DNA of 45,856 nt from Desulfuromonas sp. (GCA_002869725.1 PKTY01000317.1:1-45856), one strand, 5' to 3'. Counted from the first letter of the stretch, positions 33,540-40,327 are shown. Numbers and translations: made by a program. The notes: generated by a model from the letters alone, not told the origin.

Positions 33540-33567
33540 TTTACATCGACATATCCTCTGGTAATCT
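33540..33567 (+). promoter_or_regulatory. sigma70-type promoter TTTACA-N16-TAATCT upstream of the kinase/SSS-SpoIIE operon
   Basis: TTTACA 33540-33545, 16-bp spacer, TAATCT 33562-33567, 30 bp before the ATG at 33597. Confidence 0.55.
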
Positions 33568-33596
33568 CAAAAGAAATCCTGCTTGAGACCGGCACA

Positions 33597-35147
33597 ATGG
33601 ACAACGCTCTGCAACAACTGCTCGCTCCGCAAGCCTACCCTGAAGAGCCCGGACCGGTCGAGTTCAAGGAGACCCATATTTCGAGGATCTATCTGACCAG
33701 AAACCATGTCTACAAGGTCAAGAAAAACCTCAACCTCGGCTTCCTCGATTTTTCCAGTCTGGAAAACCGGCGCTACTTCTGCCAGGAAGAGCTACGCCTC
33801 AACCGTCGCTTTACCAGTGGCCTCTACTGCGATGTGGTTGAACTGCGCTCTGCAGGCGGACGCCTCAATTTTTGCGGGGAGGGGGAGCTGATCGACTACG
33901 CCGTACGGATGCGCCGGCTCCCGGAAGAGAGAATGCTCAACCGGATGATTGAGCGCGAGGCGACTGAGCTCCACGACGAGATGCTGAGACTCGCCCACCA
34001 CCTCGACTGGATGTTTTGCAGGGCCGAAGTTCGCCGTGATCCGAAGCTGCAGAATGCCGTCATCGTTGCCACCAACAGCCGTGACAACTTCAGTCAGACC
34101 CGTTCTTTCCCGGAGTCGCTGCTCTGCCCATCGGCACACCGGGTCATGGCGGCAATTTGTGAACAGGATCTGGCCAGACTCCAGGAGACTTTCAGGCAGA
34201 GGGAGGCCGACGGTATGGTTCGCGACGGCCACGGCGACCTGCATACCGGCAACGTCTGCATGACCGATCCGATCCAGGTCTACGACTGTATCGAATTCAA
34301 CGACCAGTTCAGAATTGCTGATGTCGCCGCCGACCTCGCCTTTCTGTTGATGGACCTCGACTTTCTCGGTCGCCGCGGCCTCTCCGATCAACTGCTGGCC
34401 GACTATCTCGCCATCTCCGAGGACCGAAATCTCGACCTGGTCCTCCCCTTCTACAAACGTTACCGGGCTTGGGTCCGGGGCAAGGTCAATGGCATTCTGG
34501 CCACCGAAACCGATGTCGACAAGAAATTGCGCCGCCAGTCAGGGGAACTGGCCCGTGGTTATTTCAACCTGGCCATGGGCTACGCCCTGAAACCGACTCT
34601 AATGCTGACCTGTGGTCTGATGGGGAGCGGCAAGTCAACGCTGGCAAAACGGCTTGCGGCATCGACCGGAGCAACCCTGCTCCGGTCCGATGTGGTGCGC
34701 AAGGAGTTAGCGGGAGTGACCAGCAGTCAGCCCGTTCTCTCCGCTTACCAGAGTGGCATCTACAGCCTGGAGATGACCGAACAGACCTACCGGGAACTTG
34801 CCGTACGCACTGAAGCCATCCTGACCGCCGGCAAACCGGTGGTCGTCGACGCCGCCTTTGGCGACAGCGTGTTACGCCGGCAATTCACAGAACTCGGAGC
34901 AGGCCTCGGACAACAAGCTTGGCTGCTGCATGTCCACTGTCCCGACCACATTACCCTGCAGCGTCTCGATCAGCGCGAGAACGACGTCTCGGACGGACGG
35001 CCCGAACTTTTTCACGCCCAGAAGAAGGGATTCTCCCCCCCTGCCTCCGCTGAAAACGTGATCAGCATCGACAGCCTCCGAGAGGTTGATTATAATGTGC
35101 AACAGATTTTGAAAACTGTCCTGGTCACACAGGAGGGAATCCGTTGA
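33597..35147 (+). CDS. bifunctional aminoglycoside-phosphotransferase-like + P-loop (AAA/zeta-like) kinase protein
   Basis: N-terminal APH-like: DGHGDLHTGNVCMTDPIQVYDCIEFNDQFRIADVAADLAFLLMDLD; C-terminal Walker A LMLTCGLMGSGKSTLAKRLA. Confidence 0.88.
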   Translation: MDNALQQLLAPQAYPEEPGPVEFKETHISRIYLTRNHVYKVKKNLNLGFLDFSSLENRRYFCQEELRLNRRFTSGLYCDVVELRSAGGRLNFCGEGELIDYAVRMRRLPEERMLNRMIEREATELHDEMLRLAHHLDWMFCRAEVRRDPKLQNAVIVATNSRDNFSQTRSFPESLLCPSAHRVMAAICEQDLARLQETFRQREADGMVRDGHGDLHTGNVCMTDPIQVYDCIEFNDQFRIADVAADLAFLLMDLDFLGRRGLSDQLLADYLAISEDRNLDLVLPFYKRYRAWVRGKVNGILATETDVDKKLRRQSGELARGYFNLAMGYALKPTLMLTCGLMGSGKSTLAKRLAASTGATLLRSDVVRKELAGVTSSQPVLSAYQSGIYSLEMTEQTYRELAVRTEAILTAGKPVVVDAAFGDSVLRRQFTELGAGLGQQAWLLHVHCPDHITLQRLDQRENDVSDGRPELFHAQKKGFSPPASAENVISIDSLREVDYNVQQILKTVLVTQEGIR

Positions 35148-35413
35148 GAAATCATCGTCCACTGCCGCTGCGCGACGCCTGGGTCATCTGGTTTTTCCTG
35201 GGCGTGGTCATGCTCAACTACCCGTTCCTGCATATCTTCAACAAAGAGATCCTGCTGTTCGGCATCCCCTTGTCCCTGCTCTACTTCTTTGTCGGCTGGC
35301 CAGTTTCGATCATCGTCATCTATCTGTTTTCGATCTATCTCGGCAAAGACAAAGAGCGCCGTTCTCCCCCTTCTGACAGTCGCCACAACAGTTCTCCTCG
35401 GGTTGAGCCATGA
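35144..35413 (+). CDS. small (89 aa) two-TM membrane protein, putative accessory subunit of the downstream symporter-like protein
   Basis: TTG start overlapping the upstream stop (TTGA), stop overlapping the downstream ATG (ATGA at 35410); two hydrophobic segments. Confidence 0.8.
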   Translation: MRNHRPLPLRDAWVIWFFLGVVMLNYPFLHIFNKEILLFGIPLSLLYFFVGWPVSIIVIYLFSIYLGKDKERRSPPSDSRHNSSPRVEP

Positions 35414-38400
35414 TTCCAGTCGGAATTGTCGCCACGGTTTCCCTGCTCTATTTTGGGCTATTGTTCGCGGTCGCCTACTACGCCGACCGCCGCCGCCAGC
35501 AGGGCAAAAGCCTGGTCAACAACCCGACTGTCTACACCCTGTCCCTTGCCATCTACTGCACATCCTGGACCTTCTACGGCAGTGTCGGCCGGGCTGCCAC
35601 CAGCGGCATCGACTTTTTGACCATCTACCTCGGACCGACCCTTATCGCCTTCTCCTGGTGGTTTCTGCTGCGCAAGATTGTGCGCGTCAGCAAGGAACAG
35701 AACCTGGTCAGCATCGCCGACTTCATCTCCAGCCGTTACGGCCAATCGACTCTGCTCGGCGCGGTGGTGACCAGCTTTGCAGTCCTCGGCATCATGCCCT
35801 ATATCGCCCTGCAGCTGAAAGCCGTAGCCCGTACCTTCGACCTGCTCTCCTACCCGATCAACGCTGTCGGCGAATCCTTTCACAAACTGCCGAACATTGA
35901 CCTCAACTTCGATACCGCTTTTGTGGTCGCAGTGATCCTCTCCCTGTTCGGCATTCTGTTCGGCGCCCGCCACCTCGATGCCTCTGAGCGTCATGAAGGA
36001 TTGATCGCAGCGATTGCCACGGAATCACTGGTCAAGATCCTGGCCTTTGGGGCGGTCGGACTGTTTGTGACTTTCGGGCTCTTCGACGGCTTTGCCGACA
36101 TCTTCCAAACCTTTTTGTCGACCTACCCGGAGCGTAGCGGGCTGCTGTTGCTTGGCACCGACCAGAACTCTTACACGCACTGGTTCTCACTGACCTTCAT
36201 CTCGATGATGGCGGTCATGTTCCTGCCCCGACAGTTTCATGTCATGGTTATCGAAAATTGTGAGGAGGAACATATCCGCAAGGCAATGTGGGGCTTCCCG
36301 GCCTACCTTTTCGTCATCAACCTGTTCGTGATTCCGATTGCCCTGGGGGGGCTTTTGCTCAACAAGGGTGGCACCCTGCTTGCCGACTATTTCGTGATCA
36401 CTCTCCCCCTGCAGTACGGCCAACCCTGGCTGGCCCTGTTGGTCTTCATCGGCGGATTCTCGGCGGCGGCCGGAATGGTGATGATCTCCTCGGTGGCCCT
36501 GTCGACCATGATCCTCAATCACCTGATCATGCCGGTCATTCTCAAGCTGCGAACCGGCAATCGTGATCTCTCAATCCTGCTGATCAATTTCAAGCGGCTC
36601 GGCATCTTCGGAGTAATTTTTCTCGGTTACCTCTATTACCGACTGCTCGGCGAAACTGCGGCTCTGGGCAACATTGGTCTGATCTCGTTCGTCGCCGCAA
36701 CCCAGTTTGCTCCGGCGGTCATCGGCGGGCTCTACTGGCAACGGGCAACACGACGAGTGGTGACTGTCGGTCTGATCTTTGGATTTGTGATTTGGTTCTA
36801 CACTCTGCTCATCCCCTCATTCGCTCAGTCGGGCTGGCTCTCCGCAGCGTTGATCGAAGAGGGTCTGTTCGGGCTGGCGCTGCTGAAACCGACAGCCCTG
36901 TTCGGACTGACCGGCTTCGACCTCTGGACCCATTCCCTGTTCTGGACCATGTTCTTCAACATCGGCTTTTTCGTGACCCTCTCACTCCTTGGCGAACCAA
37001 CCGTGGATGAGCTGCGGCAGAGCGGCAAGTTTGTCGATGTCTATGATCGCCACGAATCTCCTCTTCGTCGCACGCGCATCACCAAGGCCCCCTCGATCAT
37101 CGAATTTGTCGAATTGATGGCTAAATTCATCGGTGAAAAACAGGCACACGCCGCAATTGCTGAATATATCGGCAATCGCGAAATCAATGCTCAGGGAAGT
37201 CTCTCGGAACAGGAACTTCTCAAACTCAAACACTTCACCGAGCTGACACTGGCAGGTTCGGTCGGTTCGGCACCGGCGCGCATCATCATCGAAAATTATC
37301 TGTCAGCCCGGGGGAGTCATATGGAGGATGTGTTCGACATTTTCGGTTCTGTGAGCATCAGCCGCAGTGCCAGCCGCGAACAGCTCAGCGTCCTTTACGA
37401 AACGGCACGCACCATCGCCAGCGGCAACGACCTGAAGTCGATCCTCGACGAGATTTTGGAAATCTTCACCGACCAGTTCAAGTTCGACCTGTGTGTTATC
37501 CGGATTCTCGATGAGGAGAGGCAGACCTTGACTGTGCGCAGCCAGCGCGGCATGTCCTCCAAGCATTTCGGCGAATCGGAGCGCAACCTGAGCATGGACA
37601 CCTTTATCGGTGAAACCTTCCTGACCAACCAGGTTTCGGTGGTCAACGACACCGACTTCATGAGCAAGCCCAAAACAGCCGCCATCATCCATCGCGAGGG
37701 AATTCGCTCTTTAGCCCATGCTCCGATTACCATCGAAGGCGAGTCGATCGGTGTGCTTTCGGCCTTCTCACGCTCGGCCAAGGGCATTTTCACTGACGAG
37801 TTCGTCGAGCTGTTCACCAGCTTGGCAGGTTTGGTGGGCGTTGCCTGGCGCAATGACGAGCAGACCGGCCGCCTTATCGCCGCCCGTGAGCAGCAGCGCG
37901 AACTGGCGATCGCCAAGAATATCCAGCTCGGTCTGCTCCCGACCAGCATCCCGCAGATTCCTGCCATCTCCCTGGCTGGCTTATGCCTGCCGGCCAAAGA
38001 CGTTGGCGGTGACTATTACGACTTCCTCTGTCACGACGACAACCGCCTCGACCTGGTGATCGCCGATGTTTCAGGCCACAACATCGGAGCGGCCCTGATT
38101 ATGGCGGAAACCCGCTCGATGATCCGCTCGCGCAGCAATCAGCTCGTCAGCCCCGTTGAGTTGATGACGGATTTGAATCAAACCCTTTACGATGACCTGA
38201 CTCGCGCCGAACTGTTCATTACCATGTTCTATATGCAGTTCGACCCGAAAACCAGGCTGGCCAGGTTCTCCAGTGCCGGCCATTCACCGCCGGTCTATTA
38301 CCAAAGGAGCAACCGGCAATGTCTACTGCTCGATGCTGAGGGGCTGATTATCGGTGTCAAGCGCGACTTCCCCTACGAGCAGCAGGAGATCATTCTGGCC

Positions 38401-38625
38401 GAAGGCGATCTGCTGCTGCTCTATACCGATGGCATTATCGAGGCGAGCAACGATTTGGGAGAAATGTTTGGTGAGCAGAGACTGATGGGACTGGTCCAGG
38501 AACATCATCTCCTTCCCGCCCAGGAGATCATCGAGAGCATTATTCAGCAGGTTCGCCTGTTCAGCGGCAGGCACCACTTCAATGACGATGTCTCGCTGGT
38601 TGTCATGAAAATCGTCGGCGACTGA
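35410..38625 (+). CDS. sodium:solute symporter (SLC5/PutP-like) - STAC-like - GAF - SpoIIE/PP2C serine phosphatase fusion protein, 1071 aa
   Basis: ~12-TM SSS region (YTLSLAIYCTSWTFYGSVGRAATSGIDFLTIYLGPTL); linker IAEYIGNREINAQGSLSEQELLKLKHFTELTLAGSVGSAPARIII resembling the STAC domain; GAF; PP2C motifs KDVGGDYYDF, VIADVSGHNIGAALIMA, SAGHSPPVYY, YTDGIIEASN, HFNDDVSLVVMK. Confidence 0.93.
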   Translation: MIPVGIVATVSLLYFGLLFAVAYYADRRRQQGKSLVNNPTVYTLSLAIYCTSWTFYGSVGRAATSGIDFLTIYLGPTLIAFSWWFLLRKIVRVSKEQNLVSIADFISSRYGQSTLLGAVVTSFAVLGIMPYIALQLKAVARTFDLLSYPINAVGESFHKLPNIDLNFDTAFVVAVILSLFGILFGARHLDASERHEGLIAAIATESLVKILAFGAVGLFVTFGLFDGFADIFQTFLSTYPERSGLLLLGTDQNSYTHWFSLTFISMMAVMFLPRQFHVMVIENCEEEHIRKAMWGFPAYLFVINLFVIPIALGGLLLNKGGTLLADYFVITLPLQYGQPWLALLVFIGGFSAAAGMVMISSVALSTMILNHLIMPVILKLRTGNRDLSILLINFKRLGIFGVIFLGYLYYRLLGETAALGNIGLISFVAATQFAPAVIGGLYWQRATRRVVTVGLIFGFVIWFYTLLIPSFAQSGWLSAALIEEGLFGLALLKPTALFGLTGFDLWTHSLFWTMFFNIGFFVTLSLLGEPTVDELRQSGKFVDVYDRHESPLRRTRITKAPSIIEFVELMAKFIGEKQAHAAIAEYIGNREINAQGSLSEQELLKLKHFTELTLAGSVGSAPARIIIENYLSARGSHMEDVFDIFGSVSISRSASREQLSVLYETARTIASGNDLKSILDEILEIFTDQFKFDLCVIRILDEERQTLTVRSQRGMSSKHFGESERNLSMDTFIGETFLTNQVSVVNDTDFMSKPKTAAIIHREGIRSLAHAPITIEGESIGVLSAFSRSAKGIFTDEFVELFTSLAGLVGVAWRNDEQTGRLIAAREQQRELAIAKNIQLGLLPTSIPQIPAISLAGLCLPAKDVGGDYYDFLCHDDNRLDLVIADVSGHNIGAALIMAETRSMIRSRSNQLVSPVELMTDLNQTLYDDLTRAELFITMFYMQFDPKTRLARFSSAGHSPPVYYQRSNRQCLLLDAEGLIIGVKRDFPYEQQEIILAEGDLLLLYTDGIIEASNDLGEMFGEQRLMGLVQEHHLLPAQEIIESIIQQVRLFSGRHHFNDDVSLVVMKIVGD

Positions 38626-38648
38626 CTTAAAGAATCGTCCCAGGCAGG

Positions 38649-38677
38649 CTGAAGCTGTGGTAATATGTGAATATTAT
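38649..38677 (+). promoter_or_regulatory. candidate internal promoter/operator in front of the STAS gene (CTGAAG-N17-TATTAT, overlapping inverted repeat TAATAT-GTGA-ATATTA)
   Basis: AT-rich island in the 107-bp gap between SpoIIE fusion and STAS gene; perfect 6-bp arms at 38661-38666/38671-38676. Confidence 0.4.
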
Positions 38678-38732
38678 AGGTCAACCTGAAAGCTGATCCG
38701 GGTTGAACAATGAATTTTTGAAGGAGTTCCCC

Positions 38733-39074
38733 ATGAATTTACAGACCGAGGACAAGGGCGTTGCGGTGCTGCTGACGCTCAATGAGGAGCGGCTCGATGC
38801 CCACAACAGTGGCGACCTCAAGACCCAGATGTTGAAACTGTTTGAGCAGGGGAAAAACAACCTGGTCGTTGATATGCAGGCCGTCCGCTTCGTCGATTCG
38901 TCAGGGCTTGGAGCTCTGGTCTCGGGTTTCAAGAATGCCAGTTCGCGTAACGGCAGTCTGAAATTGACCGGCCTGCAGTTGCAGGTCAAGTCGATGTTTG
39001 AACTGACCAGACTGCACCGGGTGTTCGAAATCTACAACGACGCCGAGGAGGCTCTCGGTAGTTTCCAGCAGTAA
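38733..39074 (+). CDS. STAS-domain anti-sigma factor antagonist (SpoIIAA/RsbV-like; start trimmed to MNLQTEDKG)
   Basis: VDMQAVRFVDSSGLGALVSGFKNA contains the conserved phosphorylatable DSSGLG motif; SD AAGGAG upstream of ATG 38733. Confidence 0.92.
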   Translation: MNLQTEDKGVAVLLTLNEERLDAHNSGDLKTQMLKLFEQGKNNLVVDMQAVRFVDSSGLGALVSGFKNASSRNGSLKLTGLQLQVKSMFELTRLHRVFEIYNDAEEALGSFQQ

Positions 39075-39114
39075 GGGGTACCAACAGGCAGGCACCAACC
39101 AGAACGGGCCCATC

Positions 39115-39540
39115 ATGCCGAATGACCGTCTTGCCGTTGACATAAAAGTCCCCAACCAGACGCGCTACCTCTGTCTGATTGGCCATATCGGCGAGAACAT
39201 CGCACGCACCTTGAAACATTTTGGGGGTGATCGCGAGAAACTTGCCTACGATCTCAATCTGGTCCTCACTGAGGCGATGGCCAATGCTATCCAGCATGCC
39301 AACGTCGGCGACCCGGCCAAGGAAGTGCATATTGAGATCAGTATTGTCGATCGGCAACTGCAGATTCGTGTCTACGATTTCGGCGAGGGGTTCGATATCG
39401 ACGAATACTGCCAGCCACGTCATCCCCTCGAAGAGCATGGCCGCGGCATCTACCTGATCCGCTCGATTATGGACGAGATGTGCTACAAAAAAACGGCGGA
39501 CGGCCACGTCCTTGAACTGTGCAAAAATCTCAATTCATAA
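39115..39540 (+). CDS. ATP-binding anti-sigma factor kinase (RsbW/SpoIIAB-like HATPase)
   Basis: N-box VLTEAMANAIQHANV, G1 VYDFGEGFD, G2 GRGIYLIRSIMDEM. Confidence 0.92.
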   Translation: MPNDRLAVDIKVPNQTRYLCLIGHIGENIARTLKHFGGDREKLAYDLNLVLTEAMANAIQHANVGDPAKEVHIEISIVDRQLQIRVYDFGEGFDIDEYCQPRHPLEEHGRGIYLIRSIMDEMCYKKTADGHVLELCKNLNS

Positions 39541-39553
39541 TGCTTGGAAAACG

Positions 39554-40327
39554 TTATTGGCGGCGCAACACGACCATCAGCCCGATACCACCAAACAGGG
39601 CCATGGGGAGTGACAGGAGTTGCCCCATGGTCACCCCCCCCCACAGATACCCGATATGAGCATCCGGCTCACGGAACAGCTCGGCTAAAATCCTGAACAG
39701 TCCATACCCCAGGAAGAAACTGAAAAAAGGGATGCCAGGCCGCACCTTGCGGCGGTGCATCAGGTAGAGCAGTGCAAACAGCACCCCACCTTCCAAAACC
39801 GCCTGGTAAAGCTGACTGGGATGCCGTGGCAGCGCGCCCCCCCCGGGGAAAATAATGCCCCAGGGGAGATTTGTGACCCTCCCCCACAGCTCGCCATTGA
39901 TGAAATTTCCAAGGCGGCCGCAGCCCAACCCGATGGTTGCCGAGGCAACCAACACGTCGCCAGTCAGCAGCAAGGGCAGCGCACGGCGGTGACAGAACCA
40001 GACCGACGCCAAGGTCACACCGAACAGCCCGCCGTGAAAACTCATACCCCCCTGCCAGACGGCAAAGATTTCGAGGGGGTGGGCCAGATACCAGCCGGGG
40101 TTGTAAAAGAGCACGTAACCGAGGCGCCCGCCGAGCACAACACCGATCACCCCCTGGAACAACAAATCTGAAATCCCATCCTGATCGATCGGCAGGTTAC
40201 GCAGGCGAGCCAGTTTCCGAATCAGCAGATAGGCCGCGACAAAGCCGACCAGGTACATCAGACCGTACCAGCGCACCGCAAGCGGACCGATCTGCAGGAT
40301 GACCGGATCGATATCGGGAAACCTCAT
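39554..40327 (-). CDS. lgt: phosphatidylglycerol--prolipoprotein diacylglyceryl transferase
   Basis: VRWYGLMYLVGFVAAY, GGRLGYVLFYNPGWYLAHPLEIFAVWQGGMSFHGGLFGV, GRLGNFINGELWGR. Confidence 0.96.
   Translation of the reverse strand: MRFPDIDPVILQIGPLAVRWYGLMYLVGFVAAYLLIRKLARLRNLPIDQDGISDLLFQGVIGVVLGGRLGYVLFYNPGWYLAHPLEIFAVWQGGMSFHGGLFGVTLASVWFCHRRALPLLLTGDVLVASATIGLGCGRLGNFINGELWGRVTNLPWGIIFPGGGALPRHPSQLYQAVLEGGVLFALLYLMHRRKVRPGIPFFSFFLGYGLFRILAELFREPDAHIGYLWGGVTMGQLLSLPMALFGGIGLMVVLRRQ

Follow-up and report, generated by a model that had tools for sequence, protein, structure and literature searches.

Introduction

In the CbrA-CbrX/CbrB system of Pseudomonas, a 13-TM SLC5 domain is joined by a STAC domain to a cytosolic output, in CbrA a PAS-histidine kinase, and a small hairpin protein, CbrX, is encoded just upstream and translationally coupled to it (PMC13022988, PMC6591292). 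An earlier study presents CbrX as a translational coupler conserved within Pseudomonas and Azotobacter (PMC6591292); a later one presents it as a subunit bound to CbrA (PMC13022988). The residues of the histidine pocket of CbrA have been described as well, together with a lysine, K196, that fills the sodium site (PMC13022988). Outputs described for STAC proteins are histidine kinase and GGDEF domains, and the SLC5-STAC kinases include those of the CrbS/MxtR-CrbR acetate system and kinases linked to acs (PMC5715377). Actinobacterial SSS proteins that contain GAF, PP2C_SIG and HATPase domains are noted in a review (PMC7918813). In human SGLT-MAP17, an SLC5 fold is combined with a small membrane subunit, and the pair is a transporter only, without signalling domains.

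Partner switches are built differently. In RsbU-RsbV-RsbW and SpoIIE-SpoIIAA-SpoIIAB, a PP2C phosphatase, a STAS protein with a phosphoserine motif and a HATPase with its full set of boxes are encoded together, and in SiaABCD of Pseudomonas aeruginosa a membrane PP2C phosphatase works with a kinase and a STAS protein. Acetate is the main substrate of Geobacter and its relatives, which drive metal reduction and electrode biofilms.

Here, we analysed a five-gene locus in 45,856 nucleotides of Desulfuromonas sp. (GCA_002869725.1 PKTY01000317.1:1-45856; the whole stretch is called the window for simplicity). The host genome belongs to the Desulfuromonadia and is 88.5% complete. In the reading that we favour and hold to be fairly probable, the locus encodes a class-wide Desulfuromonadia system headed by a CrbS/CbrA-type transceptor, whose output goes to a partner switch and not to a two-component relay. 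This reading is based on the domains, the catalytic residues, synteny, promoter elements, the single origin of the fusion, the joint loss of the small membrane protein and the SLC5 domain, and the retention of the phosphatase with the STAS and HATPase genes.

Results and discussion

Gene organization and promoters

Five co-oriented plus-strand genes, predicted in a first-pass annotation of the window, were all confirmed as open reading frames between 33597 and 39540: KIN (33597..35147), a 516 aa kinase with APH-like and AAA_33 P-loop domains; SMALL (35144..35413), an 89 aa membrane hairpin protein with a TTG start; SSSP (35410..38625), a 1071 aa SLC5-STAC-GAF-SpoIIE transceptor phosphatase; STAS (38733..39074), a 113 aa RsbV/SpoIIAA-like antagonist; and HATP (39115..39540), a 141 aa RsbW/SpoIIAB-like HATPase. 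The two overlaps read as signs of translational coupling are also present, TTGA at 35144-35147 between KIN and SMALL and ATGA at 35410-35413 between SMALL and SSSP. Downstream, lgt abuts HATP in the window at a distance of 14 bases (39540-39554). In most relatives of the order the two are separated by a HAD-hydrolase gene, missing here, which we rejected as a sixth member of the system because it lies on the opposite strand.

The annotation had placed a good promoter at 33540-33567. A scan with the generic sigma-70 consensus did not pick this region and found promoters no more often than in shuffled sequences, so that a -35/-10 consensus is not supported. The region itself is probably right: it holds an extended -10 element, P1 (TGGTAATCT, 33559..33567, plus strand), and the corresponding pattern TGnTAnnnT recurs 5' of the operon's first gene in 28/32 loci (dinucleotide shuffles: mean 5.3, maximum 12). 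The same pattern is found at -110 to -35 of STAS in 21/28 loci (shuffles: mean 1.6, maximum 6), in the window as the internal element P2 (TGGTAATAT, 38658..38666, plus strand), a putative STAS-HATP promoter element; sigma-54 sites were not found 5' of STAS. A single transcription unit for all five genes is doubtful because this second conserved extended -10 element precedes STAS, and STAS-HATP probably has its own start, which would give two transcription units.

The sensor half of SSSP

The N-terminal 660 residues of SSSP have no match in Pfam. Despite this silence, the initial SSS/STAC call proved right, since residues 10-635 align to the cryo-EM chain of the P. putida CbrA SLC5-STAC region (PDB 10ed_A, E 1.5e-73). 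An alignment-based AlphaFold model of SSSP (mean pLDDT 80.5) contains a transporter bundle, four helices at the STAC position, a GAF domain and a PP2C domain, and in a structure search the SLC5 part matched SGLT and NIS transporters, SGLT being among the top transporter fold matches. The four predicted helices of the STAC domain (37096..37311, aa 563-634) span residues 563-574, 576-587, 600-618 and 620-634, lie inside the 10ed_A alignment and include G575, E611 and G619, which are near-invariant and common to CbrA. In the SLC5 domain (35410..36999, aa 1 to about 530), K209 occupies the position of the membrane lysine K196 of CbrA and is invariant in 119/119 sequences. Judged by these alignments, the N-terminus of SSSP is a CbrA/CrbS-type 'transceptor'.

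SSSP and CbrA are 30% identical over SLC5-STAC and differ at three pocket positions (S53T, A56T, F248S), at which SSSP agrees with related sensor kinases. The pocket argues against histidine and would fit a smaller ligand that is moved or sensed with protons. The nearest SLC5-STAC relatives outside the class are histidine kinases from Alphaproteobacteria, Betaproteobacteria, Nitrospirota and other groups (44-52% identity). Kinases linked to acs (acetyl-CoA synthetase, recognized from its own sequence) are among the closest of them, with 47-52% identity in SLC5-STAC and the same pocket residues; the likeness to CrbS/MxtR-CrbR is drawn through these kinases and not through an authenticated CrbS. 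The acs gene adjoins 12/48 related sensor-kinase loci, several of which also have an SSS symporter. SSSP itself has no histidine kinase domain in Pfam searches, its output being GAF-SpoIIE where CbrA has a PAS-histidine kinase, and its locus, unlike CrbS/MxtR-CrbR, comprises neither histidine kinase and response regulator nor a neighbouring acs.

In a sensor tree with CbrA, on a very long branch, as the root, the SpoIIE-fused sensors form one clade beside the histidine kinases (SH-aLRT 95); of the 28 kinases that the tree includes, 11 acs-linked ones fall in the sister group. A single swap of the kinase for a SpoIIE output, within the class Desulfuromonadia, is therefore most likely. Two loci (L160 and L121, from Desulfuromonadales and Geobacter) carry another SLC5-STAC histidine kinase, and its neighbouring gene resembles, on visual inspection, the nucleotidyltransferase/CBS type.

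The small membrane protein

SMALL has no family match in Pfam, and searches of Pfam and PDB with the protein alone or with its close family returned nothing sound. The profile of the wide family has a single PDB match, which is CbrX (10ed_X, E 4.2): weak as a search result, striking as a single comparison named in advance. Like CbrX, SMALL is a small 2-TM protein whose gene overlaps the 5' end of an SLC5-STAC gene. Its residues N25, P27, F32, P42 and W52 are invariant, and homologues lie directly upstream of related SLC5-STAC histidine kinases in almost all loci where the available sequence extends far enough; one proline and one tryptophan stay invariant when these kinase-linked homologues are included. 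The small TM protein of the first-pass annotation is thus no orphan but a putative CbrX-type subunit of the transporter-like sensor. By its gene position, SMALL is the probable counterpart of CbrX and a putative transporter-bound partner of the SLC5 domain, and the family as a whole suggests that CbrX is one branch of something more general.

Conservation of the locus and natural dissections

Conservation of gene order in relatives had been named beforehand as a check, and the system passed it. The last four genes, SMALL, SSSP, STAS and HATP, have an unchanged order and orientation in 38 class-typical loci from the order, of which one is cut by a contig end. Across the Desulfuromonadia, their synteny extends to all those orthologous loci examined that were complete enough to judge, bar the clades that have lost the sensor. 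The same core is found in named loci of Geobacter, Oryzomonas, Trichlorobacter, Desulfuromusa, Geothermobacter and others. Within the order, most loci are flanked by a divergent TPR gene on one side and by a convergent lgt on the other. Among 296 genomes sampled from the phylum, 14/14 Desulfuromonadia and 0/282 others have full-length SSSP; many of these 282 contain SLC5-STAC matches that end ahead of the phosphatase, the pattern of sensor kinases. A strong SSSP match is present in 152/168 genomes of the class, and in four of these, from the genus g253, it covers the phosphatase only.

The exceptions dissect the system. In three loci of genus g253, the gene order is KIN, a phosphatase without further domains (about 266 aa), STAS, HATP and lgt, and SMALL, SLC5, STAC and GAF are all absent together. 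In the Syntrophotaleaceae, SMALL and the whole of SSSP are lost and STAS-HATP is kept at the same place (STAS in 8/8 genomes, SSSP in 0/8). Because this family keeps the pair alone, STAS-HATP has a role without the SSSP sensor in some lineages; there it must work with a different phosphatase or act constitutively. Synteny by itself would link SMALL with SLC5, and the phosphatase with STAS-HATP, less firmly than these dissections do.

The dissections also bear on whether the locus is one system. SMALL-SSSP could act elsewhere, with STAS-HATP a separate switch that merely lies downstream, as the conserved promoter element of STAS, the Syntrophotaleaceae and the existence of SSSP paralogues without STAS-HATP would allow. 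We consider this improbable: genus g253 has trimmed SSSP to a bare phosphatase, exactly the part that it keeps beside STAS-HATP, and the synteny of SSSP with STAS-HATP holds across the class.

Two relatives' genomes, which we take to be those of Pelobacter carbinolicus and Pelobacter propionicus, bear on the ligand, and the second keeps the full operon. P. carbinolicus does not oxidize acetate (PMC3543383), and P. propionicus is equally unable to do so (PMC2669807). The Syntrophotaleaceae had suggested that SSSP and acetate oxidation are lost together, an idea that fails for P. propionicus.

The output half: GAF, phosphatase, STAS and HATPase

The GAF domain of SSSP (37426..37845, aa 673-812; GAF_2 5e-15) matches the structure 2qyb, a GAF domain from a membrane protein of Geobacter sulfurreducens, with 42% identity. 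For kinase signalling, CbrA can do without its SLC5 domain, and its signal may come from the cytoplasm (PMC7918813, PMC5715377). The GAF domain of SSSP could therefore be the true sensor: it would bind an intracellular ligand, and SLC5-STAC would merely anchor the protein, import a solute or tune activity. CbrA without SLC5 still signals, a cytoplasmic signal being favoured there (PMC7918813), and the GAF domain is conserved, with a solved Geobacter structure; against this stand the loss of SMALL and SLC5 together with GAF in genus g253 and the near-invariance of the pocket residues and K209 across the class, which points to a strong constraint on the transporter part. On balance, we regard a sensing GAF domain as rather unlikely and prefer SLC5 as the sensor.

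The SpoIIE/PP2C phosphatase domain (37966..38613, aa 853-1068; Pfam 7e-55) has its metal-binding aspartates D868, D886, D1007 and D1060 intact, and these, together with D871 and D1059, are invariant in 27 orthologues. Its fold matches the RssB, SiaA (6k4e), RsbU and SpoIIE phosphatases, and SiaA is also matched by sequence (7.6e-11). STAS matches Pfam STAS (2e-19) and TIGR00377, above its cut-off; 48/113 positions are invariant in 16 orthologues, including the DSSGLG motif with the phosphosite (S56/S57). HATP matches HATPase_c_2 (7e-22), and the best PDB matches of its profile are RsbW (6m36, 6e-16) and SpoIIAB (2e-12); E53, N57, D88, G90, G92 and the GRG motif are invariant. The description of the last two genes as an RsbV-like antagonist with DSSGLG and an RsbW-like HATPase with N, G1 and G2 boxes therefore holds in full, every one of these elements being conserved, as does the wider proposal of a partner-switching core of phosphatase, antagonist and HATPase, here fused to an SSS-STAC sensor. 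Unlike in RsbU-RsbV-RsbW and SpoIIE-SpoIIAA-SpoIIAB, the phosphatase forms one protein with a transporter-like sensor, the switch has no cognate sigma gene beside it, and the HATPase scores far below the cut-off of the curated RsbW model (53 against 145 bits). Of the earlier label 'anti-sigma kinase', the likeness to RsbW/SpoIIAB stands, and the anti-sigma role is inferred only.

The observation that no sigma factor is encoded nearby was borne out: sigma-70 family genes are absent from the contig, and the assembled genome, 88.5% complete, shows two elsewhere, RpoD-like and RpoH-like by size and sequence. RpoS-sized sigmas occur in relatives both with and without the system, so that sigma-factor profiling fails to discriminate as a clue to the target. 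Gene context gives no target either, since conservation of the genes downstream does not extend beyond the order. We give a sigma factor about an even chance of being what the HATPase holds. The target could instead be an enzyme such as a diguanylate cyclase, in the manner of SiaABCD or of stressosome cyclases, or STAS itself could bind an effector. The sequence and fold match to SiaA speaks for this, as do the lack of a sigma gene nearby and the presence of only RpoD- and RpoH-like sigmas in the assembled genome. The best structural relatives of the HATPase, however, are the anti-sigma proteins RsbW and SpoIIAB; no diguanylate cyclase (SiaD) is found in the conserved block or its listed flanks; and RpoS may be unassembled in an incomplete genome whose relatives have RpoS-sized sigmas. 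We therefore see an enzyme target or a STAS effector as possible but short of probable. From SiaABCD the locus differs further in its sensor domain.

Elsewhere in the same genome, a second set of STAS, HATPase and SpoIIE genes (G000:C267:2802-5596) is much diverged from that of the window, and a GAF-SpoIIE gene (G000:C311:5724-7049) contains an in-frame TGA and TAA and may be decayed or reflect an assembly error.

Proposed mechanism and origin

In the favoured transceptor-fed partner switch, SMALL and the SLC5 domain would form a membrane sensor, in which a small extracellular nutrient, bound or transported, would shift the SLC5-STAC conformation. The signal would pass through the STAC helices and a linker helix to GAF and on to the SpoIIE phosphatase, which would take the phosphate off the STAS serine. 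The HATPase would otherwise phosphorylate STAS and hold the target protein; unphosphorylated STAS would bind the HATPase, and the target would be released. A promoter of their own would also allow STAS and HATP to be expressed without the upstream genes. We infer every biochemical step of this scheme, as well as its ligand and target. As the ligand, we tentatively favour acetate or another short carboxylate because acs is linked to related kinases, with P. propionicus and its full operon as the counter-example.

The pairing of an SSS domain with a sigma-type phosphatase has some precedent, since the Actinobacterial proteins combine SSS with GAF and sigma-type PP2C output (PMC7918813). Those domains belong to one protein, whereas here STAC is present and STAS and HATPase are separate genes; within the sampled phylum, the SSSP-type fusion is confined to Desulfuromonadia. 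The open-licence literature searched yielded no account of the STAC-containing class-wide system. As a conceivable history, though one we put forward with some reserve, a CrbS-like acetate-sensing SLC5-STAC kinase in the ancestor of the Desulfuromonadia would once have received a PP2C phosphatase in place of its kinase, whereby partner switching would put a global regulator under the control of carbon availability, and CbrX-type subunits would be general and ancient in all such transceptors. The operon, nearly universal in Geobacter and its relatives, adds a second output type for transporter-sensors, and CbrX would be a general sensor subunit rather than a Pseudomonas peculiarity. A phosphatase output makes the question of SLC5 sensing testable in a simple way, helped by relatives in which the sensor has been removed naturally.

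The neighbouring kinase and SSSP variants

The first-pass annotation had counted the kinase among the members of the system. KIN matches Pfam AAA_33 (8e-24) and, weakly, APH (7e-4), and carries the motifs HGDLHTGN and GLMGSGKST. It adjoins SMALL in 21/38 class-typical loci, which makes it an optional neighbour and not part of the core; homologues occur in 40/58 genomes and are unlinked in three (G022, G023 and G043). A search against a defence-system library returned one weak match, to KIN only.

Variants of SSSP were also seen. An orthologue in a complete genome (G040:C1:2788806-2792015) has one in-frame TAG and may be split or decayed. Stand-alone transceptor-phosphatase paralogues without STAS-HATP are found at two loci (L057 and L064), and at L057 two SSSP paralogues lie about 5 kb apart, one of them without a detectable SMALL.
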